A stretch of DNA of 64,000 bases, from the NCBI GenBank assembly GCA_020444275.1, contig JAHLLG010000006.1, positions 138,316-202,315 on the forward strand. The letters run 5' to 3'. Below are positions 32,224 to 46,216 of the stretch, in pieces. The DNA is from Bacteroidota bacterium (GTDB lineage: Bacteria > Bacteroidota > Bacteroidia > Bacteroidales > UBA12077). The notes below the pieces were generated by a model that was given only the letters and a program-made list of their open reading frames with translations, searched no databases and had not been told where the DNA came from. The translations under genes were made by a program, and so were the position numbers. The stretch's first letter is position 1. Every line of letters begins with the position of its first letter.

Positions 32224-32631
32224 ATGGCTAAATATAATGAACCAGAAACCAACACTGCAATAAATTTGATAGGTGCTGGAACCGAGATTACAGGTGATGT
32301 GAATTCAAATGGAGATATTCGAATTGATGGTACATTAAGTGGAAACTTAAAGACTGCAGGAAAAGTAGTTATTGGTGAAACCGGAAAAGTAAAAGGAGAG
32401 ATCGATTGTAAGAATTCAGAAGTCCTAGGACAAATTGAAGGAAAAATTAAAGTTGGGGAATTACTTTCTCTGAAAGCTACTTCAAAAATATTTGGTGATA
32501 TTATTACAAAGAAACTGGCAATTGAACCAGGGTCTAAATTTACAGGAAACTGCAAAATGGGCGAAGAATCTATTAGCAGTGTTGTTAACGAAGAATCTAA
32601 ATTTGGGAAAAAAGATCAAAAAAGCGCTTAG
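32224..32631 (+). CDS. Bactofilin (polymer-forming cytoskeletal protein)
   Basis: This 135-residue protein is a bactofilin (DUF583). It has short unstructured ends and a central right-handed beta-helix core from about residue 17 to 105. The repeating hydrophobic-glycine strand pattern is seen in TEITGDVNSNGDIRIDGTL, KVVIGETGKVKGEI and GDIITKKLAI. Bactofilins self-assemble into nucleotide-free filaments that scaffold cell-shape or envelope enzymes. In many Bacteroidota a bactofilin gene stands just ahead of the F-type ATPase genes. Here it is followed by an AtpI-like gene and then the V-ATPase operon. Confidence 0.93.
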   Translation: MAKYNEPETNTAINLIGAGTEITGDVNSNGDIRIDGTLSGNLKTAGKVVIGETGKVKGEIDCKNSEVLGQIEGKIKVGELLSLKATSKIFGDIITKKLAIEPGSKFTGNCKMGEESISSVVNEESKFGKKDQKSA

Positions 32632-32682
32632 TTAAATTTGGCAAAAGATCTTTTAGATTTCACCATAATGTTGTGTGATAAG

Positions 32683-32712
32683 AATACCGGGAGCAAACTC
32701 CCGGTGTTTGTT
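32683..32712 (+). terminator. Terminator-like hairpin after bactofilin
   Basis: AATACCGGGAG pairs with CTCCCGGTGTT around a CAAA loop (32683-32708) with a very stable GC core. The following tract TGTTATT is only weakly T-rich, so termination may be partial. Confidence 0.6.
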
Positions 32713-32787
32713 ATTATGATAGTATAGCCTGGAGTTGTAATAACAATAACCGTATTATCGGATAGTTTATTTTGAAACCAATAAGTA

Positions 32788-33177
32788 ATGCAAGCATTTA
32801 AAAGATTCCTTTTTCGTGAGATAGTATTCACTGCAACACTTTCATTAGCAGCATATGTTCTTTTTTCAACTCTTCTATCGGAATATTATTTGCCTGTATT
32901 TTGGATACTACTTGGATTGATTGCTACACTTACGGCTATATTCCATTATTCAATAGTTCAGATACAGGAAAAACAACCAGGCAGATTTTCAACACGTTTT
33001 ATGATGATTACCGGAATAAAAATGATGGTTTATTTGGTCTTTATAACGGTCTATGCCTTTATGTATACTGAAAATGCAGCCAAATTTTTAATTTCATTTT
33101 TAACTCTATATCTACTATATACCATTTTTGAGGTTATATTAATTGTTCGTTACTTTAAAAACTTAAGAAAAAAATAG
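32788..33177 (+). CDS. Four-helix AtpI-like / DUF6168-type membrane protein
   Basis: This 129-residue integral membrane protein has four predicted helices (about residues 10-28, 35-53, 72-90 and 98-118) and a basic end FKNLRKK. The pattern and the neighbourhood match the small AtpI-like protein that stands between bactofilin (often with AtpZ) and atpB in many Bacteroidota. AtpI-type proteins assist assembly of the F-ATPase c ring. Assignment rests mainly on topology and position. No AtpZ-like gene is found between it and bactofilin. Here atpB lies 8 kb further on, behind the V-ATPase operon. Confidence 0.7.
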   Translation: MQAFKRFLFREIVFTATLSLAAYVLFSTLLSEYYLPVFWILLGLIATLTAIFHYSIVQIQEKQPGRFSTRFMMITGIKMMVYLVFITVYAFMYTENAAKFLISFLTLYLLYTIFEVILIVRYFKNLRKK

Positions 33178-33348
33178 TTTTACGTAAATAGGATATAATA
33201 ATACCTCCACTTTTTTGTATATTTGAAATTCCTCACCACTTTCTAAACCGCCTAATAGAAAAGAAAATTGATATAATTCATTGACATGGTGTTTTGTGTG
33301 CACATGTTGTTAAACAGATAACAGTGTGAAAAAACTAACAAAGAAATT

Positions 33349-33379
33349 TTTGGAAATTATTTTTAGTAGTATACATTTG
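33349..33379 (+). promoter_or_regulatory. Complete Bacteroidota promoter for the V-ATPase operon
   Basis: TTTG at 33349-33352, exactly 19 bases, then TACATTTG at 33372-33379. This fits the published Bacteroides consensus TTTG-N19-TAnnTTTG with no mismatch and is the best promoter in the window. The start site is expected about 7 bases after the -7 element. Confidence 0.75.
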
Positions 33380-33433
33380 TTGCTTACAAAAAGTAATATG
33401 TTTTTTAGTCAAATAATATGATAGTTCAAGTAA

Positions 33434-33454
33434 TTTAGTAATCAGTTTAGTAAT
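33434..33454 (+). repeat. Short direct repeat TTTAGTAAT in the V-ATPase leader
   Basis: TTTAGTAAT occurs at 33434-33442 and again at 33446-33454, followed by the related inverted form ATTATCTAATAATCTAAAT. It lies inside the predicted untranslated leader. It may simply be AT-rich drift. Confidence 0.4.
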
Positions 33455-33551
33455 TTAATTATCTAATAATCTAAATATTTGTTGATTAATTAAGATTTGT
33501 TATTAGATTTGTAACTCATTTTTTATTCCTAAACAATAAGAACTTATAAAT

Positions 33552-34169
33552 ATGGAAAACAAACTTCAGGAATTAACTCAGAAGCTTTATAACGAGGGGG
33601 TTGAAAAAGCAAATGCTGAAGCAGAGAAAATCCTTGCCGATGCAAAATCTGAAGCTGAGAAAATTAAGCAGGAAGCTGAAAAGGAAGCAAAAAAGATTGT
33701 TGATTCAGCCGAACAAAAATCAGCCGAAATCAAAAAGAATGTTGATGCTGAATTAAGTCTTGCAGCAAAACAAACCGTAAGGACAACAAAACAAAAAATT
33801 ACCGACATGATTGTGAGTAAGGTAATTGAAGAACCTGTAAAAAAGTCCTTCGATGATGAAAAGTTTGTTAAACAAATTATTGAAACGGTTGTAAAAAACT
33901 GGAATCCGCAGAAAAATGAAACCATTGATTTATCTGTGCTTTTACCAGATGATTTAGAAAAAGAATTTTCTAAATATTTTACAGCAAAATCAGGCAAAGA
34001 ATTAAATGCTAATCTGGAATTGAGCTTTAGCGATTCTATTAAAGGTGGTTTTAAGGTTGGTCCGGCTGATGGTTCATACAAGATTAGTTTTAGCGAGGAA
34101 GATTTCGAAAACTTCTTTAAATCTTACCTTCGTCCGAAAACCATTGAAATGTTATATCCAGGAGAATAG
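33552..34169 (+). CDS. V-type ATPase subunit E
   Basis: Subunit E forms part of the peripheral stalk that holds the catalytic head against the membrane sector. The 205-residue product has the expected architecture: a long Ala/Glu/Lys-rich amphipathic coiled coil (about residues 1-70, with EAEKIKQEAEKEAKK), then a globular C-terminal domain that binds the head (about 90-200). It is the first gene of the V operon, directly downstream of the strong promoter, and is 2 bases from the next gene. The order E, DUF2764, A, B, D, I, K matches spirochaete and Chlamydia V-ATPase operons. Confidence 0.88.
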   Translation: MENKLQELTQKLYNEGVEKANAEAEKILADAKSEAEKIKQEAEKEAKKIVDSAEQKSAEIKKNVDAELSLAAKQTVRTTKQKITDMIVSKVIEEPVKKSFDDEKFVKQIIETVVKNWNPQKNETIDLSVLLPDDLEKEFSKYFTAKSGKELNANLELSFSDSIKGGFKVGPADGSYKISFSEEDFENFFKSYLRPKTIEMLYPGE

Positions 34170-34171
34170 TT

Positions 34172-35023
34172 ATGTTTCGTAATTATTATCACTATTTTGT
34201 AGCAGGTTTGCCCGATATCTTTCTGGACGACACAGAGGTTCAATTTCACATGCTTGACTTTAAGCACGAGTTGAAGGAAAACCTGAAGTCCGAAGATTAT
34301 AAATTGGTTGAATTGCTATTTCTACCTTATGATAACCAGAAACTTCTTCAGTTTTTAGATGAGGATTTTGAAAATCAGAATAAATTAGGGAACTACTCTT
34401 TTGAAGATTTTGAAATAGAGTTTTCTGACGAAAGAAAAGGAATACTTCCATCCTATATGTATGAGTTCGTGGAGATTTTCAATGATGAGGAATTATCTAA
34501 AAATGTTACAAAAAGTTGGGAAGATCTGTTAACCCAGATGTATTATGATTATGTTTTAAAAACAAAAAATAAGTTTTTGAAACAGTGGTTCGAATTTAAC
34601 CAGAATCTGAATAATATTTTGATTGGGTTAAACTGCCGGCAGTATGACCTGGATCCGGAGAAAAAGCTGGTTGGCGACAATGAAATTACCCGCGCAATTA
34701 GTACCAGTAATGCAAAAGATTTTGGTTTAGGTGTTGATTTACCATATGTAAATGATATCATTACACAAGCCGAGAAAGAAAATCTTTTGGCCAGAGAAAA
34801 GGGACTAGATCAGATCAAGTGGGATAAGGTAGAAGAGATTACACTGTTCGATTATTTTACAATTGAAGTTATATTAGCTTATACAATAAAACTCGATATG
34901 GCTTATCGATGGTTAGAGTTAGATGAAGAAAAAGGACGTGAAATGTTCCGTAAGATCATTGAGAGCTTAAAATCAGGATTCGAGTTTCCTAAAGAATTTG
35001 CAATAAATAGAAAAAACAAATAA
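34172..35023 (+). CDS. DUF2764 protein, candidate V-type ATPase C-like subunit
   Basis: This 283-residue soluble protein belongs to DUF2764, found only as the second gene of V-ATPase operons of the Bacteroidota/spirochaete/Chlamydia kind. It is helix-rich, with several acidic stretches and NNILIGLNCRQYDLDPE near residues 148-164, resembling the all-helical V-ATPase C subunit (C/AC39) that links rotor and membrane sector. No separate C subunit gene exists in this operon, so a C-like role is a reasonable inference. It lies 2 bases after E and 1 base before A. Confidence 0.82.
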   Translation: MFRNYYHYFVAGLPDIFLDDTEVQFHMLDFKHELKENLKSEDYKLVELLFLPYDNQKLLQFLDEDFENQNKLGNYSFEDFEIEFSDERKGILPSYMYEFVEIFNDEELSKNVTKSWEDLLTQMYYDYVLKTKNKFLKQWFEFNQNLNNILIGLNCRQYDLDPEKKLVGDNEITRAISTSNAKDFGLGVDLPYVNDIITQAEKENLLAREKGLDQIKWDKVEEITLFDYFTIEVILAYTIKLDMAYRWLELDEEKGREMFRKIIESLKSGFEFPKEFAINRKNK

Positions 35024-35024
35024 A

Positions 35025-36779
35025 ATGACAAAAGGAAAAGTAGCAGGAATTATCGCAAACCTTGTTTTTGTTGAGGTGGACGGACCTGTTCAACAAAACG
35101 AGATATGCTACATTAATTTGGGCGATACCAAATTAATGGCCGAGGTTATTAAGGTAATGGGAACCCAGGCATATGTACAGGTTTTTGAAAGTACTCGTGG
35201 ACTTAAAGTGAACGATACCGTTGATTTTACAGGACATATGCTAGAGGTATCTTTAGGACCTGGTATTCTTTCAAAAAACTTCGATGGTCTGCAAAACGAC
35301 CTGGATAAAATGCACGGAGTTTTCTTACAACGAGGAGAACATACCAATCCATTAGAGGATGATAAAAAATGGGAATTCAAACCTATTGCAAAGCCTGGAG
35401 ATGTTTTAGAGGCTGCCGGATGGTTAGGTGAAGTGAAAGAAAACTGGATGCCTCATAAAATTATGATTCCATTTAAGTTTAAAGGTAAATACACAGTTAA
35501 AAGCATAGTTGAAGCTGGTGAATATACCATTAAAGATACGATTGCTGTTGTTACCGACGAGGATGGAAAGGATATAGATTTAACCATGGTTCAGAAATGG
35601 CCTGTTAAAGTGGCTATTAAAGCATATAAAGAAAAGCCACGACCATTCAAATTATTGGAAACAGGTGTTCGTGTAATCGATACATTAAATCCAATCGCTG
35701 AAGGAGGTACAGGATTTATTCCAGGTCCGTTTGGTACTGGAAAAACAGTACTGCAGCATGCGTTATCAAAGCAAGCCGAAGCAGACATGATTATTGTTGC
35801 TGCTTGTGGTGAACGTGCAAACGAGGTGGTGGAAATTTTTACTGAATTCCCCGAATTAGACGACCCTCGCACAGGCCGTAAACTAATGGAACGTACAACA
35901 ATTATTGCAAATACATCAAACATGCCGGTTGCTGCACGTGAAGCTTCTGTTTATACAGCTATGACACTTGCTGAATATTACCGTGCAATGGGATTAAAGA
36001 TCTTATTACTCGCCGATTCAACATCTCGTTGGGCACAGGCGCTACGTGAGATGTCAAATAGAATGGAGGAGCTACCAGGTCAGGATGCATTCCCAATGGA
36101 CCTGCCTGCAATTATTTCTAATTTCTACTCGCGCGCAGGATTTACTTATTTAAATAATGATGCGACAGGGTCAATTACATTTATCGGAACGGTATCACCT
36201 GCTGGTGGTAACTTAAAAGAGCCGGTAACGGAATCAACTAAAAAAGCAGCGCGATGTTTCTACGCACTGTCGCAGCAACGAGCTGATAGTAAACGTTATC
36301 CTGCTATTGATCCACTGGAGAGTTACTCGAAATATGCAGAATATCCAGAATTGGAAAAATATTTTAGAGAAAATATCGATGCTGAATGGCCAGAGAAAAT
36401 CGCTTTGGCAAGAGATATTTTGATTCGAAGTAGAGAAGTGGATGAGCAAATTAACATCTTAGGTGATGATGGTGTACCTATCGAATATCATGACAGATTC
36501 TGGAAAGGTGAAGTTGTCGACTTTATTATTCTTCAACAAGATGCTTTTGATAACATCGATAACTCTACTCCATTAGACCGTCAGAAATATATGTTGGATA
36601 AGGTGCTAGACATATATCATACAGACTTCACTTTCGAATCTTTCGAAGACGTTGGAGCTTTTTTTAAGAAAGTGATCAATGTGATGAAACAAATGAACTA
36701 CTCTGAATTCCAATCAGATAAGTTCAAAGAAAATGAAAAAGAACTTAACACGTTAATCGAAGAAAGGAAGACAGCATAA
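35025..36779 (+). CDS. atpA (V-type): V-type ATPase catalytic subunit A
   Basis: This is the catalytic nucleotide-binding subunit, 584 residues long. Walker A is GPFGTGKT at 234-241. Other family features are the V-type-specific non-homologous insertion before it (about residues 110-185, with EWKWEF-like KKWEFKPIAKPGD), the CGERANEV motif, the SSR-like LADSTSRWAQALREMS and PAIISNFYSRAG. The sequence is typical of bacterial V/A-type enzymes and not of F1 beta. The stop codon overlaps the start of subunit B (TAATG). Confidence 0.97.
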   Translation: MTKGKVAGIIANLVFVEVDGPVQQNEICYINLGDTKLMAEVIKVMGTQAYVQVFESTRGLKVNDTVDFTGHMLEVSLGPGILSKNFDGLQNDLDKMHGVFLQRGEHTNPLEDDKKWEFKPIAKPGDVLEAAGWLGEVKENWMPHKIMIPFKFKGKYTVKSIVEAGEYTIKDTIAVVTDEDGKDIDLTMVQKWPVKVAIKAYKEKPRPFKLLETGVRVIDTLNPIAEGGTGFIPGPFGTGKTVLQHALSKQAEADMIIVAACGERANEVVEIFTEFPELDDPRTGRKLMERTTIIANTSNMPVAAREASVYTAMTLAEYYRAMGLKILLLADSTSRWAQALREMSNRMEELPGQDAFPMDLPAIISNFYSRAGFTYLNNDATGSITFIGTVSPAGGNLKEPVTESTKKAARCFYALSQQRADSKRYPAIDPLESYSKYAEYPELEKYFRENIDAEWPEKIALARDILIRSREVDEQINILGDDGVPIEYHDRFWKGEVVDFIILQQDAFDNIDNSTPLDRQKYMLDKVLDIYHTDFTFESFEDVGAFFKKVINVMKQMNYSEFQSDKFKENEKELNTLIEERKTA

Positions 36780-38104
36780 TGGAAACACAAGCATTTCAAA
36801 AAATATATACAAAGATCACGCAGATCACAAAAGCTACTTGTTCCTTAAAAGCGACAGGTATTGGTTATGAAGAAATGGCTATTGTGAACGGGCGACTGGC
36901 TCAGGTTGTTAAGATCATTGGCGATGAAGTTACGCTTCAGATCTTCTCAGGAACCGAAGGCGTTCCAACAAATGCTGAAGTAATTTTCTTAGGACGTCCT
37001 CCTGTATTGAAAGTTGGAGAGGAACTATCAGGAAGATTCTTTAACGCATATGGCGATCCAATTGATGGTGGACCAGCAGTAGAAGGAGAAGAACGACAAA
37101 TTGGTGGACCTTCTGTGAACCCTGTTCGTAGAAAACAGCCATCAGAGTTTATTCCTACAGGGATTGCTGGTATCGACCTAAACAACGCTTTGGTAACGGG
37201 TCAAAAGATTCCTTTCTTTGCCGATCCGGATCAACCATTTAACCAGGTAATGGCAAACGTAGCACTTCGTGCCGATGCCGATAAGATTATACTTGGAGGT
37301 ATGGGATTAACCAACGATGATTATTTATATTATAAGAATGTTTTTGATAACGCCGGTGCTTTGGATCGTATTATAAGTTTCGTTAATACAACTGAAAATC
37401 CACCGGTAGAGCGTATTTTGGTGCCAGATATGGCATTAACAGCTGCAGAATATTTCGCAGTGGATAAACATCAAAAAGTTCTTGTTCTTTTAACAGATAT
37501 GACCCTTTATGCCGATGCATTAAGTATTGTATCGAATCGTATGGACCAGATTCCTTCGAAAGACAGTATGCCAGGATCTCTTTACAGTGATTTAGCAAAA
37601 ATTTACGAGAAAGCGGTTCAGTTTCCTGATGGTGGTTCGATTACCATTATTGCTGTAACCACATTATCTGGTGGAGATATTACTCACGCAATTCCTGATA
37701 ATACAGGTTATATTACCGAAGGACAGCTATTCTTACGTAAAGATACAGACATCGGGAAAGTTATTGTAGACCCATTCCGTAGTTTGTCTCGTTTAAAGCA
37801 GTTGGTTATTGGTAAGAAAACACGTGCGGATCATCCACAAGTGATGAATGCAGCTATTCGTTTATATGCTGATGCAGCTAATGCTAAAACAAAACAGGAA
37901 AACGGGTTCGACCTGACTGATTACGACGAACGTGCACTGAATTTCGCAAAAGATTATTCAGAAAAACTGCTAGCTATTGATGTAAATGTTGAAGTTGATC
38001 AAATGCTTGATACAGGTTGGAATTTATTTGGTGAATATTTTAAACCTGCAGAGGTTGGTATCAAACAAGAGTTTGTTGATCAGTACTGGCCAAAAGAAGA
38101 TTAG
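36779..38104 (+). CDS. atpB (V-type): V-type ATPase subunit B
   Basis: This 441-residue non-catalytic subunit alternates with A in the head. It lacks a working P loop, having FADPDQPFNQV at the corresponding position, as expected for B subunits. Family motifs include FIPTGIAGID near residue 121, VLLTDMTLYADAL, SNRMDQIPSKDSMPGSLYSDLAKIYEKA and SGGDITHAIPDNTGYITEGQ. It follows A by a one-base overlap. An 82-base gap with a large hairpin separates it from D, the longest gap in the operon. Confidence 0.97.
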   Translation: METQAFQKIYTKITQITKATCSLKATGIGYEEMAIVNGRLAQVVKIIGDEVTLQIFSGTEGVPTNAEVIFLGRPPVLKVGEELSGRFFNAYGDPIDGGPAVEGEERQIGGPSVNPVRRKQPSEFIPTGIAGIDLNNALVTGQKIPFFADPDQPFNQVMANVALRADADKIILGGMGLTNDDYLYYKNVFDNAGALDRIISFVNTTENPPVERILVPDMALTAAEYFAVDKHQKVLVLLTDMTLYADALSIVSNRMDQIPSKDSMPGSLYSDLAKIYEKAVQFPDGGSITIIAVTTLSGGDITHAIPDNTGYITEGQLFLRKDTDIGKVIVDPFRSLSRLKQLVIGKKTRADHPQVMNAAIRLYADAANAKTKQENGFDLTDYDERALNFAKDYSEKLLAIDVNVEVDQMLDTGWNLFGEYFKPAEVGIKQEFVDQYWPKED

Positions 38105-38108
38105 TTAA

Positions 38109-38179
38109 AAGTTTCAGGTTTAAGGTTAAAAGTTGTATGCAATTTAAAACCTGAGACCTGAAACTTGTAACCTGAAACT
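38109..38179 (+). repeat. Imperfect 27-bp inverted repeat within the V-ATPase operon
   Basis: Between subunits B and D the arm 38109-38135 pairs with 38140-38166 around a four-base loop. The outer 11 bases (AAGTTTCAGGT/ACCTGAAACTT) are perfect and the inner part has several mismatches. A third copy of the ACCTGAAACT unit follows at 38170-38179. There is no T tract, so it is not a simple terminator. It could stabilise or process the A-B part of the message, or be a copy of a short interspersed repeat. Confidence 0.7.
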
Positions 38180-38186
38180 ATAAAGT

Positions 38187-38786
38187 ATGGCAATAAAATT
38201 TCAATATAATAAAACATCCTTACAACAATTAAACAAGCAGCTTAAAATTCGTTTAAGAGCTTTGCCAACACTGCAAAGTAAAGAGGCAGCTCTTCGAATG
38301 GAAGTTAAGCGAGCTAAAGACCAGTCAGAAGCCTTACTTGAGAAGCTGGAAAAACGCATGAAGGACTACGAGGCCATGGTAAGGTTATGGGGTGAGTTTG
38401 AAGAAGATTTGATAACTGTAAGCGATGTTAAAATGAGCGTGAAGAAAATTGCAGGTGTGAAAACACCCATTTTAGATGATGTAATTTTCGACATTAAGGA
38501 ATTTAGCCTTTTCAATAAACCGAGTTGGTTTTTACATGGTGTTCAAATTCTCCAATCTCTTGTAAAAATATCTATTGAAAGTGAATTCTTTTTACGTAAG
38601 ATGGAACTTTTAGATTTTGCAAGAAAGAAAACTACTCAAAAGGTGAATCTTTATGAAAAGGTTCAGATTCCGGGATATGAAGAGGCGATTTCAAAAGTGA
38701 AGCGATTCTTGGAAGATGAAGAAAATCTTTCTAAATCGTCTCAAAAAATTGTGAAGAAACGTCAACAAAATATGGAGGCTGCGTAA
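38187..38786 (+). CDS. V-type ATPase subunit D
   Basis: Subunit D is the central rotor shaft, the counterpart of F-type gamma. The 199-residue protein has two long terminal helices that make the antiparallel coiled coil (about residues 6-70 and 125-190), with KTSLQQLNKQLKIR at the start and a basic C terminus, as in other D subunits. It lies just before subunit I and shares one base with it (TAATG). No gene for the shaft partner F is recognised in the operon. Confidence 0.92.
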   Translation: MAIKFQYNKTSLQQLNKQLKIRLRALPTLQSKEAALRMEVKRAKDQSEALLEKLEKRMKDYEAMVRLWGEFEEDLITVSDVKMSVKKIAGVKTPILDDVIFDIKEFSLFNKPSWFLHGVQILQSLVKISIESEFFLRKMELLDFARKKTTQKVNLYEKVQIPGYEEAISKVKRFLEDEENLSKSSQKIVKKRQQNMEAA

Positions 38787-40561
38787 TGATAGTACCAATG
38801 TTGAAATATTCTTTCCTAATCTATCATAAGGAGTATGTTCCATTTCTTGAGAAATTGCAGGAATTAGGTGTGCTTCATATTATAGAAAAAAAGAATGAGG
38901 TTGATGAAAATATAAAAATCTCACTGCATCAGATTAGTGAGATTAACAAAGCATTAAAGTTCTTAGGTAAGCGAAATCTGGAAGAATCTCCGGCAAAACC
39001 TGAAATGGATGGATTAGAAATAGTAGAATCCATTAAAAAGCTTACTGAAGAAATAAATGCTATTGAACAGGAGCAAATTTCATTAAATAAAGATATACAG
39101 AAAGCTCAACCCTGGGGAGATTATGATCCTCAAATGGAAGAGAAATTTGCACAAAAGCAGATTTATTTAAAGTATTTCGTATGCGGTGAGAAAAAGTTTA
39201 ATCCTGAATGGAAAGAGAAATATCCTATTGAGATAGTGAATACTCAAGACGGATATGTCTATATCCTTGCGCTGCAGCGAGGTTCAAATCCTATCGACAT
39301 TGACGCTGAAGAAATAAAACTTCCGGAACAAAAATTATCGGAATTATTAACTAAGGACAGAGCGAATAAAGAACGTTTAGCAGAAATTGAAAAAACGTTT
39401 GATGAATATGCGATAAAATATCAGGATATTTTAAGAGAAACTCGTCGGAAGCTGCAGGAAAAAACTGATTTTGAATTAGCAATCAATCATACCGAAAAGC
39501 GAGCCGAAGAGAAGGTTATGCTTTTAGAAGGATGGATTCCTGAAGAGAAAAAAGAAGATCTTGAGGAGATGCTTAATAAGCAGGATGTTTACTATGTTTT
39601 GTCCCAACCAAAATCAGACGATAAGGTGCCAATAAAACTCAGAAATAATAAGTTTAATCGACTTTTTGAACCTATTGGGGATTTATTTTCTTTACCTGAT
39701 TATGAGGAGTTAGATTTAACACCGTTTTTTGCACCGTTCTTTATGTTATTCTTCGGATTCTGTGTGGGAGATACAGGATATGGATTGTTTATTCTTATTG
39801 CAACCCTAATCTTTAGAAGAAAAGCAAGTAAAGAATTAAAGCCATTGTTAACATTAGCATCTTATCTTGGGGCTGCTACAGTTTTAATGGGGTTCATTTC
39901 AGGAACATTTTTCGGTGTTGAACTTGTAAAAGTTGAGGCATATCCATTAAAAGATATTATCCTTGATCCTTTAAAACTATTCTGGTTATCAATAGGTATA
40001 GGTGGTTTACAAATATTCTATGGAATGTTTATTAAAGCTGCCAATCAGATTAAGCAAGGTGGATTAAAGTATGGTTTATCAACGATTGGTTGGATTTTAC
40101 TAATAATTAGCGGTGCACTAGCTGTTGTTTTTCCAATGATCAACATTAGCTTACCAAAAATTGTGATTCAAATATTATTTGGTATTAGCGGAGCATTAAT
40201 CCTAATTTTTGCTAATCCGGATATTAATATTTTTGCAAGTATTGGCTCAGGACTGTATGATGCTTATAATATGATTACAGGTGTATTTGGTGATCTACTA
40301 TCTTACATCCGATTATTTGCACTGGGAATTTCAAGTGCTATTTTAGGATTAGTATTTAACCAGATTGCAGCTCAATTTTTAGGCGGAAGTTTCTTAAGCT
40401 ATATACCATTTATCATTATTTTATTAATAGGACATGGATTGAATATTTTCCTTGCTAGTCTTGGAGCTTTTGTTCATCCATTACGTTTAACATTTGTTGA
40501 ATTTTATAAGAATGCCGGCTTCACTGGAGGTGGCAAACAATATAAACCTTTTTCAAAATAG
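38786..40561 (+). CDS. V-type ATPase subunit I (a-type stator)
   Basis: This 591-residue protein is the membrane stator that carries the ion half-channels. The first 320 residues are soluble and helical and bind the peripheral stalk. The rest holds about seven membrane helices. The essential Arg is in LLSYIRLFALGISSAI near residues 508-523, and FVHPLRLTFVEFYKN lies near the C terminus, both diagnostic. It is at the short end of the family's length range. It overlaps D by one base and is 33 bases before K. Confidence 0.96.
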   Translation: MIVPMLKYSFLIYHKEYVPFLEKLQELGVLHIIEKKNEVDENIKISLHQISEINKALKFLGKRNLEESPAKPEMDGLEIVESIKKLTEEINAIEQEQISLNKDIQKAQPWGDYDPQMEEKFAQKQIYLKYFVCGEKKFNPEWKEKYPIEIVNTQDGYVYILALQRGSNPIDIDAEEIKLPEQKLSELLTKDRANKERLAEIEKTFDEYAIKYQDILRETRRKLQEKTDFELAINHTEKRAEEKVMLLEGWIPEEKKEDLEEMLNKQDVYYVLSQPKSDDKVPIKLRNNKFNRLFEPIGDLFSLPDYEELDLTPFFAPFFMLFFGFCVGDTGYGLFILIATLIFRRKASKELKPLLTLASYLGAATVLMGFISGTFFGVELVKVEAYPLKDIILDPLKLFWLSIGIGGLQIFYGMFIKAANQIKQGGLKYGLSTIGWILLIISGALAVVFPMINISLPKIVIQILFGISGALILIFANPDINIFASIGSGLYDAYNMITGVFGDLLSYIRLFALGISSAILGLVFNQIAAQFLGGSFLSYIPFIIILLIGHGLNIFLASLGAFVHPLRLTFVEFYKNAGFTGGGKQYKPFSK

Positions 40562-41059
<498 letters not shown>

Positions 41060-41092
41060 AAAGAAACAAATAATATTTTTTTTCGTAACAAG

Positions 41093-41127
41093 AGACGGTG
41101 CAAATCAGACTGCACTGTCTTTTTTTT
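41093..41127 (+). terminator. Terminator between V-type and F-type ATPase operons
   Basis: AGACGGTGCA (41093-41102) pairs with TGCACTGTCT (41111-41120) with one G-T wobble and is followed by seven T residues. It separates subunit K from atpB and implies independent transcription of the two ATPases. Confidence 0.88.
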
Positions 41128-41162
41128 ATTTATATAAGTGAACGATTTTATGTTTTATTCCT

Positions 41163-41170
41163 TAAATTTG
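41163..41170 (+). promoter_or_regulatory. Bacteroidota -7 element for the F-type ATPase operon
   Basis: TAAATTTG matches TAnnTTTG exactly and lies 21 bases before the atpB ATG. No clear -33 TTTG is present. Together with the preceding terminator it supports a separate atpB-E-F-H-A-G transcript. Confidence 0.6.
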
Positions 41171-41191
41171 TAATTACTCAAAGCCTTTTAT

Positions 41192-42283
41192 ATGCAAAGA
41201 ATCCTTTTTAATATTGCGGTTGTTACCTTACTTTTACTTTCTGTACAAGGATTTGCAATCCCAGAGGATCCAACGCATAAAGAAGAACATAGCGAGCAGC
41301 AGGAAAATAAAAAGTTTAATCCGGGATCATTTATTTTTGATCATATTCAGGATAGTTATAGCTGGCATATTTTTACATATAAAGGGCACCATTATTCCAT
41401 ACCTTTGCCGATAATTATATATAGTAAAGACCAGGGATTGGTTTCATTTTGGTCTTCAAAAATTGCACATGGTCATAGCTATAAAAACTTCACGATTGCA
41501 CCGGAAGGTGAGTTTGCAAATAAAATTATCGAAGTAAATGAACATGGTGAGTTTGTGGCTCGACCATTTGATATTTCATTAACAAAGAATGTGGCTGCTA
41601 TAATTATATGTGGAGTTTTCATGATCATTCTTTTTATTTCGGTGGCTAAAACATATAAAAGAAGAGAAGGTATGCCTCCCAAAGGAATGCAATCGTTACT
41701 TGAACCATTAATCCTGTTTATTCGTGATGATATTGCTAAAAACAGTATTGGCGAGCATAGTTATGAAAAGTATACACCATTCTTACTAACTATATTTTTC
41801 TTTATTTTATTTAATAATTTATTAGGATTGGTGCCTATTTTTCCGGGAGGAGCTAATGTAACCGGAAACATTACCGTAACTATGGCGTTGGCATTAGCAA
41901 CTTTTATTACTACTACGTTTACAGGAAATAAAAACTACTGGAAGCATATCTTTAATCCCCCTGGAGTTCCCTGGTGGTTAAAGTTGCCGTTACCATTAAT
42001 TCCGTTTATAGAATTAATAGGAGTTATCATAAAACCATTTGTGTTAATGATACGTTTGTTTGCGAATATTTCAGCAGGACATATCATTGTATTAGGTTTC
42101 TTTAGTTTAATTTTTATTTTTGGAAACATGGACCCGAAGCTGGGATATGTAGTTTCTCCAGTTTCCATTGCATTTACAATATTTATGTCGATGCTTGAAT
42201 TGCTGGTGGCATTCATTCAGGCATATGTTTTTACAATATTATCAGCTATTTATTTTGGTATGGCTTCTGAATCTGAACATTAA
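41192..42283 (+). CDS. atpB: F-type ATP synthase subunit a
   Basis: Subunit a provides the proton half-channels against the c ring. The 363-residue protein has the long N-terminal extension usual in Bacteroidota: a signal-peptide-like helix (residues 1-22), then about 115 hydrophilic residues with several His (HKEEHSEQQ, HIQDSYSWHIF), before the first core helix near residue 132. The essential Arg is in MIRLFANISAGHI near residues 284-296, and GLVPIFPGGANVTGNI is the usual family loop. It is the first gene of the F operon. Confidence 0.97.
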   Translation: MQRILFNIAVVTLLLLSVQGFAIPEDPTHKEEHSEQQENKKFNPGSFIFDHIQDSYSWHIFTYKGHHYSIPLPIIIYSKDQGLVSFWSSKIAHGHSYKNFTIAPEGEFANKIIEVNEHGEFVARPFDISLTKNVAAIIICGVFMIILFISVAKTYKRREGMPPKGMQSLLEPLILFIRDDIAKNSIGEHSYEKYTPFLLTIFFFILFNNLLGLVPIFPGGANVTGNITVTMALALATFITTTFTGNKNYWKHIFNPPGVPWWLKLPLPLIPFIELIGVIIKPFVLMIRLFANISAGHIIVLGFFSLIFIFGNMDPKLGYVVSPVSIAFTIFMSMLELLVAFIQAYVFTILSAIYFGMASESEH

Positions 42284-42305
42284 ATATTCACTTAAAATTG
42301 ATATT

Positions 42306-42566
42306 ATGTTAACATTAGGAATTATTTTACAGGCAGCAGCAGCAAATTTTGCATTTGCAGAAATTGGTGCAGCAATTGGAGCAAGTGTAGCAGCAATTGC
42401 AGCAGCGTTTGGCATTGGTAAAATTGGTAGTAGTGCCATGGAATCTATTGCACGCCAACCAGAAGCTGCAGGTGATATTCGATCAAACATGATCGTTGCA
42501 GCTGCACTTATTGAAGGGGTTGCTTTCTTTGCTATTGTTGTGTGTTTTCTCATTCTATTTATTTAA
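42306..42566 (+). CDS. atpE: F-type ATP synthase subunit c
   Basis: This 86-residue two-helix proteolipid starts at the ATG at 42306; a longer in-frame upstream extension overlaps atpB and is not credible. The loop ARQPEAAG (residues 49-56) contacts the central stalk. The ion carboxylate is Glu70 in ALIEGVAFF. The Na+ signature is absent, because Gly follows the Glu where Na+ types have Ser, and helix 1 has no Gln at the matching position. A proton ring is therefore expected. A hairpin with a T tract follows at once. Confidence 0.96.
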   Translation: MLTLGIILQAAAANFAFAEIGAAIGASVAAIAAAFGIGKIGSSAMESIARQPEAAGDIRSNMIVAAALIEGVAFFAIVVCFLILFI

Positions 42567-42572
42567 GCATTT

Positions 42573-42614
42573 AAACTTTACAGAGCAGCGGTTGGCTGTC
42601 TGTAAAGTTTTTTT
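42573..42614 (+). terminator. Terminator-like hairpin between atpE and atpF
   Basis: A perfect 12-bp stem (AAACTTTACAGA, 42573-42584, with TCTGTAAAGTTT, 42599-42610) is extended inward by CAGC/GCTG and followed by seven T residues. It has the form of an intrinsic terminator yet lies inside the operon. Partial termination or 3'-end protection would raise subunit c mRNA over the rest, as the ring needs many c copies per complex. Confidence 0.85.
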
Positions 42615-42632
42615 AATTTAAAACATGTTGTT

Positions 42633-43127
42633 ATGGAACTGATAAAACCTGATCTGGGACTTTTAATATGGATGCTATTTTCCTTTAGTATTGTAGTGTT
42701 TGTTCTGGCAAAGTTTGCTTGGCGTCCAATTCTGGCTGCATTAAAACACAGGGAACGATCAATTCAAAGAAGTTTAGAAGCAGCACAAAGAGCAAAAGAT
42801 GAACTGGCTAAAATTGAATTTGGAAACGAAAAAATAACACAACTTGCTAAACTGGAAAAAGAAAACCTCTTGAAAGAGGCAAAAGAGATAAAAAATAATA
42901 TTATCGAAGAAGCTAAAGAAGCAGCTAAAATAGAAGCTAAGAAAATAATAGAAGAGGCTAGAAATAGTGTTGAACATGAAAAGAATCTGGTTATAAACGA
43001 TATAAAAAATCAAATAGCTTCTTTATCAGTCGATATAGCAGAAAAAATACTAAAGCAAAACCTGGGTGATGAATCAACTCAGAAACAGCTTATTGATGAA
43101 TTGGTTAAAGATATTGATTTGAATTAA
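42633..43127 (+). CDS. atpF: F-type ATP synthase subunit b
   Basis: Subunit b is the peripheral stalk. The 164-residue protein has one N-terminal membrane helix (about residues 9-28) with the family motif FAWRPILAAL just after it, then a long charged coiled coil rich in Glu, Lys and Ala, and a C-terminal region binding delta (EKILKQNLGDE). Length is normal. atpH starts 5 bases later. Confidence 0.96.
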   Translation: MELIKPDLGLLIWMLFSFSIVVFVLAKFAWRPILAALKHRERSIQRSLEAAQRAKDELAKIEFGNEKITQLAKLEKENLLKEAKEIKNNIIEEAKEAAKIEAKKIIEEARNSVEHEKNLVINDIKNQIASLSVDIAEKILKQNLGDESTQKQLIDELVKDIDLN

Positions 43128-43132
43128 AGTAA

Positions 43133-43696
43133 ATGCATAATAGCCAAATAAATACAAGATATGCAAAAGCTCTTTATCTGCTAGCCGAAGAAAAAGAATT
43201 ACTGGATTTAGTTAGGAGCGATATGGAGTCAATTCTCAAAGGGATTGAAGAAAACAACGATATTGAGATTTTGTTAGAGCATCCCGTAATAAAATCATCA
43301 AAAAAAGCACAGTTATTAGACGATATATTTAATGATACCTTGTCGGAACACACAAAGTCTTTTATAAAACTAATTGTTAAAAATAGACGCGAAAAACACT
43401 TAAAAAACATATGTAGAGTTTTCATAAGTTTATATAAAGACAAAAAGGGTATTAAAACAGCAGTTCTAACAACATCTTTCGATTTAACCAGAACACATAA
43501 AGAAAAAATAAAAAAATCAATCGAAGAAACTTTTAAATCTCCGGTTGAACTCGATACCAAAGTTGATAAATCAATAATTGGTGGTATGCTTATTCAGATA
43601 GATGACAAATTATTGGATTTAAGTGTGGCAAGACAAATACAGGAACTAAAAAATCAGTTCTTAAATATTGATTTTAATAATAAAAAGAATAAATAA
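43133..43696 (+). CDS. atpH: F-type ATP synthase subunit delta
   Basis: Delta caps the F1 head and joins it to the b stalk. The 187-residue protein has the N-terminal six-helix domain (INTRYAKALYLLAEEK near the start, LLEHPVIKSSKKAQLLDDIF) and the C-terminal domain with VDKSIIGGMLIQIDDKLLDLSVARQIQELK, the family signature. A 54-base gap containing a stable hairpin separates it from atpA. Confidence 0.96.
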   Translation: MHNSQINTRYAKALYLLAEEKELLDLVRSDMESILKGIEENNDIEILLEHPVIKSSKKAQLLDDIFNDTLSEHTKSFIKLIVKNRREKHLKNICRVFISLYKDKKGIKTAVLTTSFDLTRTHKEKIKKSIEETFKSPVELDTKVDKSIIGGMLIQIDDKLLDLSVARQIQELKNQFLNIDFNNKKNK

Positions 43697-43702
43697 AATC
43701 TG

Positions 43703-43734
43703 CCTGCCATCCCGATAATTTTTCGGGTGGCGGG
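43703..43734 (+). repeat. GC-rich hairpin between atpH and atpA
   Basis: The arm CCTGCCATCCCGA (43703-43715) pairs with TCGGGTGGCGGG (43723-43734), with one bulged T and one wobble, around an AT-rich loop. It is much more GC-rich than its surroundings and ends 16 bases before the atpA ATG. It resembles the inverted repeats scattered between genes in many Bacteroidota genomes; a role in translation of atpA is also possible. Confidence 0.65.
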
Positions 43735-43750
43735 TTTAAAAGCAATAGCT

Positions 43751-45334
43751 ATGGCAGGAATTAAACCAGGAGAAGTCTCCTCAATTTTAAAAAAGGAATT
43801 AGAAGGCTTTACAACAAATTCCGAACTAGAAGAAGTAGGTAGTGTTTTACAAGTTGGAGACGGCATAGCTCGAATTTATGGATTATCTAATGTACAATCC
43901 AACGAGTTAATTGAGTTTGAAAACGGAATGAAGGCGATCGTTTTAAACCTTGAAGAAGATAATATCGGAGTGGTACTTTTGGGATCTTCAGATGAAATTA
44001 AGGAGGGCGATAAGGTTAAACGTACTAAACGAATAGCTTCTATTAACGTTGGGGAAGGTTTGTTAGGAAGAGTTATAAACACTATTGGAGAACCTATTGA
44101 CGGGAAAGGTCCGGTTACCGGCGATCTTTACGAAATGCCTTTGGAAAGAAAGGCTCCTGGTGTAATTTATCGTCAACCTGTAAATGAACCCATTCAAACA
44201 GGAATAAAACCTATCGATGCTATGATTCCTATTGGCCGGGGTCAACGTGAGTTAATTATAGGCGACCGGCAAACAGGAAAGACAGCCATTGCTATCGATA
44301 CGATTATTAATCAGAAAGAATTTTATGATAAAGGCGAACCGGTTTATTGTATTTATGTTGCGATAGGTCAGAAAGGTTCAACCGTTGCGAATATTGCTGA
44401 TACTTTAGAAAAGCATGGAGCGATGGCATATACAACCATAGTTACCGCAACTGCATCGGATCCGGCTGCCTTGCAGTTTTATGCGCCTTTTGCCGGAGCC
44501 TGTATAGGCGAATATTTTAGAGATACAGGTAGACCAGCGCTAATAATATATGATGATTTATCGAAACAAGCGGTAGCCTATCGCGAGGTATCTTTATTAC
44601 TTCGTCGGCCACCAGGTCGTGAAGCATATCCGGGCGATGTATTTTATTTGCATTCAAGATTGCTGGAAAGAGCAGCCAAGATTATTCAATCCGATAAGAT
44701 TGCAGCTCAAATGAACGACTTGCCTGAATCATTAAAAGGAAAAGTTAAGGGTGGAGGCTCCTTAACTGCTCTACCAATAATTGAAACACAAGCTGGTGAT
44801 GTTTCTGCATATATTCCTACCAACGTAATTTCGATTACCGATGGGCAGATATTCTTAGAAACAGATCTGTTTAATGCTGGGGTAAAACCTGCTATTAATG
44901 TGGGGATTTCGGTTTCCAGAGTTGGTGGACATGCGCAAATCAAATCCATGAAAAAAGTTGCAGGAACCTTAAAACTCGATCAGGCCCAATACCGGGAATT
45001 AGAAGCGTTTGCGAAGTTTGGATCCGATTTGGATCCAGCAACCATGGCAGTTTTGGATAAAGGAGCCAAAAATGTAGAGATATTAAAACAAGGACAGTAC
45101 AAACCCGTATCTGTTGAAAAACAGATTGCAATTATTTATTGTGGAACAAAAGGGTTACTCGAGGATGTTCCTGTTGATAAAGTGAAAGAATTTGAGAAGG
45201 ATTTTCTGGATATGATGGAAACTCAACATGAAAAGGTACTCCATGAATTGAAATCTGGTAACTTATCTGATGAAGCAATTAAAGTAATTGAATTGGTAGC
45301 AAAAGATGTCGCTTTAAAGTATAAAGCAGATTAA
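43751..45334 (+). CDS. atpA: F-type ATP synthase subunit alpha
   Basis: The non-catalytic head subunit, 527 residues when started at ATG 43751 ([10 protein letters not shown]). An upstream in-frame GTG at 43727 lies inside the hairpin and is rejected. Walker A is GDRQTGKT at 171-178. Other alpha signatures are [47 protein letters not shown] and [19 protein letters not shown]. atpG follows after 3 bases. Confidence 0.98.
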
Positions 45335-45337
45335 GAC

Positions 45338-46216
45338 ATGGCAAATTTAAAAGAAATACGCACCCGAATTGCTTCGGTTAAATCAACCCGGCAAATTACC
45401 AGTGCAATGAAAATGGTGTCTGCGGCAAAACTCAAAAAAACGCAGGATACTGTTATTCACCTGCGGCCATATGCAGGTAAACTTCATCATATCCTGTTTA
45501 ATATTAATCAAAGTATTGAGCAGGATGAGGAAAATATTTATGCTCGCAAGGATGATCCTGAAAAAGTTTTAATTGTATCTATCACATCAAATAAAGGCCT
45601 TTGTGGCGCATTTAATGCTAATGTAACCAAACGTGTAAGTGCCTTAATTAATGAGGAATATATTAAAAAGTATGATGAGGACCATATTGAAATATTTTCA
45701 ATTGGAAAAAAAGGAACCGAAACATACAAATCAAAAGGATTTAATCTTTTAGGATATAACAATGATATATTGGATGATCTAAGCTTCACTAAAGCATTAC
45801 CGCTTATCGAAGATATTATGCATAGGTATGTAAAAAGGGAATTTGACAAGGTTATGTTGGTGTATAACAGATTTAAGAACGCAGCAGTTCAGGTCTTATC
45901 TGTTGATTCATACTTACCAATAGAAATACCTGAAAATATTAAGCCCAACGAAAGCTTTGATTTTATTTTTGAACCTACGAAAGAATATATTGTAAAAGAA
46001 CTCATCCCAAAATCATTAAAAATACAGTTTTACGAAGCAATTCTGGAGTCACTGGCAGCAGAGCATGGAGCAAGAATGACGGCTATGCATAAAGCAACAG
46101 ACAACGCAACCTCACTTCTGAGAGAACTACAGCTGAAATACAATAAAGCACGACAAGCTGCTATTACCAATGAGATTCTGGAAATTGTCGGAGGAGCTGA
46201 AGCTTTAAGTAAGTAG
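45338..46216 (+). CDS. atpG: F-type ATP synthase subunit gamma
   Basis: Gamma is the central rotor shaft. The 292-residue protein begins with the conserved helix MANLKEIRTRIASVKSTRQI and ends with the family signature near residues 247-285 (ARMTAMHKATDNA, YNKARQAAITNEI). It is the last gene of this F cluster. No beta (atpD) or epsilon (atpC) gene follows, so the catalytic subunit must be encoded elsewhere, as in many Bacteroidota. Confidence 0.98.
   Translation: MANLKEIRTRIASVKSTRQITSAMKMVSAAKLKKTQDTVIHLRPYAGKLHHILFNINQSIEQDEENIYARKDDPEKVLIVSITSNKGLCGAFNANVTKRVSALINEEYIKKYDEDHIEIFSIGKKGTETYKSKGFNLLGYNNDILDDLSFTKALPLIEDIMHRYVKREFDKVMLVYNRFKNAAVQVLSVDSYLPIEIPENIKPNESFDFIFEPTKEYIVKELIPKSLKIQFYEAILESLAAEHGARMTAMHKATDNATSLLRELQLKYNKARQAAITNEILEIVGGAEALSK

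Follow-up and report, generated by a model that had tools for sequence, protein, structure and literature searches.

A V-type ATPase operon within an F-type ATP synthase locus in a family of Bacteroidales

The window analysed here is a stretch of 64,000 nucleotides from a Bacteroidota genome (G000:C4:138316-202315; the source genome comprises 4.22 Mb in 10 contigs), and it carries a V-type ATPase operon within the locus of an F-type ATP synthase. We named the genes using a list of open reading frames (ORFs) and Pfam and NCBIfam family scans of the window proteins, and read the order bactofilin, AtpI-like gene, V operon (subunits E, DUF2764, A, B, D, I and K; DUF, domain of unknown function) and atpB-E-F-H-A-G. 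The ORFs and family matches confirmed the gene order and coordinates claimed in the initial annotation of this DNA. Below, f1 is our code for the window's family, and g1 and g2 are codes for genera in it. The features, in window coordinates, are as follows.

32224-32631, + strand: bactofilin gene (PF04519, E 5e-29)
32682-32709, + strand: G+C-rich strong hairpin 3' of bactofilin, at the atpZ position of some relatives
32788-33177, + strand: AtpI-like gene, four hydrophobic stretches, without a Pfam match
33504-33511, + strand: TAGATTTG, candidate -7-like element 5' of the V operon; two more lie in the same gap
33552-34169, + strand: V/A-type ATPase subunit E (weak PF16999 match, E 2e-4, below cut-off; named also from operon position)
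34172-35023, + strand: DUF2764, probable subunit C/d (PF10962, 3e-70; PF01992, 1.1e-4, below cut-off)
35025-36779, + strand: V/A-type subunit A (family match)
36779-38104, + strand: V/A-type subunit B (family match)
38187-38786, + strand: V/A-type subunit D (family match)
38786-40561, + strand: V/A-type subunit I (family match)
40595-41059, + strand: V/A-type subunit K, two hairpins, Na+ ligands L54, T57, Q58, Q106 and E135 (and Y61)
41090-41123, + strand: terminator-like hairpin and T run, recurrent in f1
41163-41170, + strand: TAAATTTG, -7-like element 5' of atpB
41192-42283, + strand: atpB, F subunit a (family match)
42306-42566, + strand: atpE, F subunit c, H+-type site (family match)
42633-43127, + strand: atpF, F subunit b (family match)
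43133-43696, + strand: atpH, F subunit delta (family match)
43751-45334, + strand: atpA, F subunit alpha (family match)
45338-46216, + strand: atpG, F subunit gamma (family match)

The AtpI-like gene, described initially as a four-helix gene, does encode four hydrophobic stretches and can be aligned with the gene preceding atpB in relatives. On reading, 42306 and 43751 are the more likely starts of atpE and atpA. A G+C-rich palindrome was also read between atpH and atpA (43697-43750).

In order to map this arrangement across the family, 25 f1 genomes, the source genome included, were searched for ATP-synt_ab and their loci were mapped with the window proteins. The junction of subunit K with atpB was observed in 23 of them, the contigs of the other two (G001, G022) ending short of it, and none of the 25 contradicted it. 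Since the junction recurs in 23 genomes, the gene order is not an assembly error. In g2, atpD-atpC and a glycosyltransferase-like gene (assigned by reading) are followed, about 3-3.5 kb on, by bactofilin, AtpZ, the AtpI-like gene and V. AtpD-C, bactofilin, AtpZ, AtpI, V and atpB lie on a single contig in G002 and G004, and the upstream half was seen in G001 and G005; G003 was undecidable for the position of V relative to both F halves. In this genus V separates atpD-C from atpB, the two parts into which the F genes are divided. We detected atpZ at 8 of the 15 other f1 loci tested; in the window there was no match and no convincing remnant at the position that atpZ occupies in relatives (32631-32788). 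In G006, F alpha was read as two pieces (L008:1348-2863), and the gene looks interrupted or mis-sequenced. A DUF2764 scan returned eleven named loci, all in uncultured Bacteroidota genomes, including GWA2_31_9b and GWB2_32_14.

The genes for the F subunits beta and epsilon (atpD/atpC) were located at G000:C4:116909-118704, about 52 kb upstream of the bactofilin gene; beta was identified by its PF00006 match and by reading, and epsilon by reading only. The description of the locus as a 14-kb island with two enzymes was therefore overstated, the F enzyme being incomplete within these 14 kb. Five ATP-synt_ab matches were obtained in the source genome; from where they lie and from reading, we assigned four of them to F alpha, V subunit A, F beta and V subunit B, the remaining one being, we infer, Rho; so assigned, they give one V and one F enzyme. 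The V operon had also been called complete. Its gene set fits the Bacteroidota V/A-type Na+ ATPase, with E recognised by a sub-threshold match and its position, and the word holds in that sense only: subunit F (ATP-synt_F, PF01990), found in 6 of 14 controls, had no match in the source genome, and no separate subunit G gene was recognised in the operon.

We compared the bactofilin-to-atpB interval among relatives, as had been proposed with the initial annotation. DUF2764 was present in 149 of 393 genomes of the order and, in a sample of 392 from the phylum, in 8. Newly found V-bearing genomes numbered 90 (80 searched first, nine later, and G171 fetched separately). Outside f1 and f73, a family with a nested layout of its own described below, DUF2764 and atpB could both be placed in 107 genomes of 46 families, the genomes G670, G597, G460 and G713 lying outside the order; this count leaves aside genomes in which atpB was not found (20 of 80 and 17 of 65) and G299, whose V position was not listed. 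The two genes lay within 15 kb of each other in three of the 107, on opposite strands (G212 and G345 of f94, and G240 of f16). At these loci (L057, L058 and L059) the V and F operons lie near each other in divergent orientation, with other genes between them and 5-12 kb from DUF2764 to atpB. Two of the five f94 genomes with both genes showed this closeness, the distance being 231 kb in G288 and the genes lying on different contigs in G402 and G117; in f16 it was seen in G240 and not in G367.

Of 49 F loci outside f1 and f73, 18 (16 of 41 families) had bactofilin within 0.95 kb of atpB and V absent between them; these are 13 of the 42 loci with at least 1.5 kb upstream and five of the seven shorter ones, two of the five being partial matches at a contig end. 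Among the families close to f1 in the F trees, f41, f10, f20 and f8 have bactofilin, AtpZ and atpB together without V between them; in f62, next to f8 in that tree, no bactofilin was found within 4.8 kb. The initially stated order, bactofilin leading into atpB, was seen in these 18 loci, near F relatives included, and not in the remaining ones. The gap between atpB and atpE was below 1 kb in 48 of the 49 loci; in the exception, G143, it measures 1.06 kb (L136:1616-2680) and is without V matches. Bactofilin, AtpZ and the AtpI-like gene had no match within 3 kb before V at 41 V loci outside f1 and f73, 23 of them with at least 1 kb upstream, and V was found at the bactofilin-atpB site only within f1, so that neither of the findings named in the initial annotation as refuting insertion was encountered. 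Weak matches (51-81 bits) to V subunit A upstream of atpB outside f1 coincided with F beta and were taken to be cross-hits, except one in G033 (25% identity) which does not coincide with it. Because bactofilin and atpB are contiguous in relatives and closeness of V to atpB is rare (3/107), the V operon interrupts an F order, and its insertion into the F locus, as initially suggested, is supported as the simplest reading. None of the four direct-repeat families at 33100-41300 of the window flanks the V insert, and in a near search the K-atpB stretch matched no plasmid.

A second nesting was observed in f73, with a Na+/Ca2+ exchanger gene (L022:5107-6156, L051:6610-7659) between atpB and V. The order in G096 is atpD-C, atpB, the exchanger gene (PF01699, 2e-53), V from E to K, and atpE-F-H-A; G171 has the same order, read across two contigs, with 9 bp only between atpB and the exchanger. 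The nested stretch occurs twice in G096, on separate contigs whose match scores are equal, probably as an assembly duplicate. G096 also has 79-bp tandem repeats between V subunits B and D (L022:11712-12320). An imperfect 98-nucleotide repeat (71%) after atpB and after K in L022 was not used as a flank, being A+T-rich, with a gap of only 9 bp at the corresponding place in G171. In the V trees f73 groups with f107 (support 99 to 100) and in the F trees with f95/f96 (95 to 96); in all three of these families atpB adjoins atpE and V is on another contig. Both f107 contigs are short, so that the V-F distance is not readable, and an opposite-strand gene precedes V there. In the small trees, made from 27 of the 56 V rows and 29 of the 62 F rows, a single clade of f1 and f73 was rejected by the V data (approximately unbiased test, p-AU 0.0005) and by the F data (p-AU 1.2e-6), and for this reason the two nestings look independent.

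The initial annotation had placed a terminator and a new -7 element between V and F, and both were recovered in the window, as the hairpin with T run and TAAATTTG. For the wider family we counted TAnnTTTG, which we take to be the Bacteroidota -7 consensus, in 19 of the 23 f1 genomes with the K-atpB junction. The motif occurred between K and atpB in 19/19 junctions, against 4.1 expected from dinucleotide shuffles, and was preceded by a hairpin with T run; 18 of these hairpins are distinct, and one (L010) is imperfect. It also preceded subunit E at 14/14 f1 loci (3.9 expected). V and F in f1 are thus likely to be carried on two transcripts. In the three f73 loci (two genomes) the motif was absent between K and atpE, where 0.48 was expected, so that its absence has little weight; this gap has A+T-rich hairpins only. 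Since TAATTTTG lies between the exchanger and subunit E, V in f73 may have its own start. A general scan found sigma-70-like sites at chance (60 vs 63) and 16 terminator-like sites against 8.4 in shuffles.

Subunit K of the window aligns with the Na+ rotor of Enterococcus hirae (2bl2, 5e-18) with its ligands kept, and the columns L, T, Q, Y, Q and E are kept in 47/47 rows, with S for T in two; the ligand numbering in K is presumed in part. The c subunit has I, L, E, G, V and F at the positions of Q32, V63, E65, S66, T67 and Y70 of the I. tartaricus rotor, and the Na+ set was found in 0 of 56 c rows, six of them without the first column. Because K has all the Na+ ligands and c does not, the V enzyme is predicted to use Na+ and the F enzyme H+. 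The Na+ ligands of K were taken partly from the accessible text of PMC2359735. F alpha exceeds the TIGR00962 cut-off (785 bits vs 484), and assignment of the F set to the N-ATPases was rejected, alpha scoring 594 bits against the 750.5 cut-off of the alternate-F1F0 model. A second ATP-synt_ab gene pair 4.4-6.4 kb apart, perhaps of an F/N-type ATPase, was noticed in four genomes of the order (G169:C66, G089:C65, G084:C17 and G100:C86). Two NQR2/RnfD matches in the source genome could point to a Na+ pump. Pairs of this kind are widespread: in the part of a rotary ATPase survey available to us, 1,137 of 1,388 genera with several rotary ATPases have enzymes of different ion specificity (PMC11738941), and a Na+ V and H+ F pair has been proposed for B. 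fragilis, whose V mutants were nearly lost in deoxycholate, according to the accessible portion of PMC10790697.

The second protein of the V operon was examined by comparison of sequence and structure. DUF2764 scored 22.1 bits against vATP-synt_AC39 (subunit C/d), below the cut-off of 29 (E 1.1e-4). Its structure model, built from 11 sequences, had a mean predicted local distance difference test (pLDDT) score of 84, the other four models reaching 61-69. The best solved match of the model was subunit d of the yeast V-ATPase, with probability 0.99 but E 0.05 and a template modelling (TM) score of 0.47; the remaining structure matches shown had probability 0.16 or less. A profile search of solved chains with DUF2764 found nothing, and among viral folds no match attained E 0.001. 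From the model and the sequence match, DUF2764 is probably subunit C/d. As far as the text of PMC10790697 is available, the protein is left there as a DUF; if it is subunit C/d, a gap in the Bacteroidota V-ATPase would be filled.

For the observed order, its spread, the two layouts with a single origin rejected, the rotor ligands and the junction motif, we propose with good confidence that a self-contained, separately regulable V operon was placed inside the F locus in the f1 ancestor, giving a Na+ V beside an H+ F enzyme. It would have been placed between the accessory genes (bactofilin, atpZ and AtpI-like) and atpB-E-F-H-A-G, keeping its own promoter region and ending in a terminator, and atpB would have been given a new promoter; this insulation would let the two machines be regulated apart. 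The F enzyme would make ATP from the proton gradient, and the V enzyme would exchange ATP against a Na+ gradient upheld by an NQR/Rnf-type pump, the direction in which each works being one that we infer. The f73 layout (atpB, exchanger, V, atpE) would have been reached independently. Several points weigh against this proposal. Most of the genomes are contig drafts, and in 94 of the 107 the separation of V and atpB amounts to a location on different contigs; bactofilin and atpB stand together in only 18 of the 49 other F loci. The f1 loci are related to one another and do not count as independent cases. Support in the V tree is poor around f1, the f1 clade having 33 in the small and 82 in the larger tree, and the main ground for a single entry of V in f1 is therefore the junction that its members share. 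Ion specificity is predicted from residues, and the promoters, the terminator and separate transcription are predictions from sequence.

Whether the neighbourhood of the two operons has a function is a related question. We are evenly divided over a chance relocation, in which V landed in the F locus by rearrangement and was tolerated since it was insulated, with no functional link; the terminator-like and promoter-like elements of V, the lack of closeness in 104 of the 107 genomes and the separate position of atpD-C even in the window genome suit this, but the second nesting in f73 and the conservation throughout f1 do not. An alternative is selection for closeness, in which Na+ and H+ ATPases side by side would aid dosage, joint regulation or a shared insertion into the membrane, so that lineages would arrive at this arrangement repeatedly. 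The separate nestings, the divergent neighbours of f94 and f16 and the exchanger gene inside the f73 insert agree with such selection, and three close cases (f1, f73, and f94/f16 counted once) compare with 0.31 expected when 48 families with genomes of 3.7 Mb are taken and the limit is set at 12 kb, a rough probability of 0.004. This estimate is a hint only, being post hoc, with the limit set after seeing the data, families treated as independent and f16/f94 taken as one case; closeness is moreover not kept within f94 or f16 and is absent in most families, and we regard selection for closeness as a tentative possibility. Direct horizontal transfer of V into the F locus is unlikely. The small V tree places f1 with f38/f95/f96 (support 91), a grouping rejected by the F data (p-AU 9e-12), but the larger tree does so only within a group of 19 rows (support 80), support in the V tree is weak, and f1 with its F-tree neighbour f41 is not rejected by the V data (p-AU 0.126); the arrival by transfer raised in the initial annotation was thus not supported. 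That one nesting in an ancestor was afterwards rearranged to give the layouts of f1 and f73 appears highly improbable: in both, V is found at the operon's atpB end, but a single nesting is rejected in the V and F trees and the near relatives of f73 keep atpB beside atpE. We would also give little credence to the bolder idea that Bacteroidales repeatedly thread a Na+ V-ATPase into the H+ F operon at differing points, with both ion circuits dosed and switched together, atpE-F-H-A-G of f73 perhaps being read from the V operon and the exchanger lying in the same block.

In the usual description, an F operon is either intact or divided into standard modules. The split into epsilon-beta and gamma-alpha-delta-b-c-a, as in the window, characterises 87.8% of the Bacteroidetes in one study, whose accessible text describes no V between the halves, unlike the arrangement in g2 (PMC5709465). 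B. fragilis resembles the window in having both enzymes in one genome, a seven-gene V operon with DUF2764 second and Na+ ligands in K, but its operons stand at distant locus numbers (ptos_001821-29 and ptos_002482-88 in the part of PMC10790697 available), whereas in the window V is nested in F. The ProAD survey likewise records one F and one A/V enzyme, as here, in 890 genera, and nested loci are unmentioned in its available portion (PMC11738941). The Na+ V-ATPase of E. hirae (2bl2) shares the K ligands; by comparison, the window genome is without a detected subunit F gene and has DUF2764 where the C subunit is expected. The component machines and the Na+/H+ pairing are therefore already known, and a description of V nested in F was not found in the accessible parts of the open-licence PMC literature. 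The two apparently independent nestings, with a predicted Na+/H+ pair, offer a natural comparison for the question of joint control of the two ion circuits.

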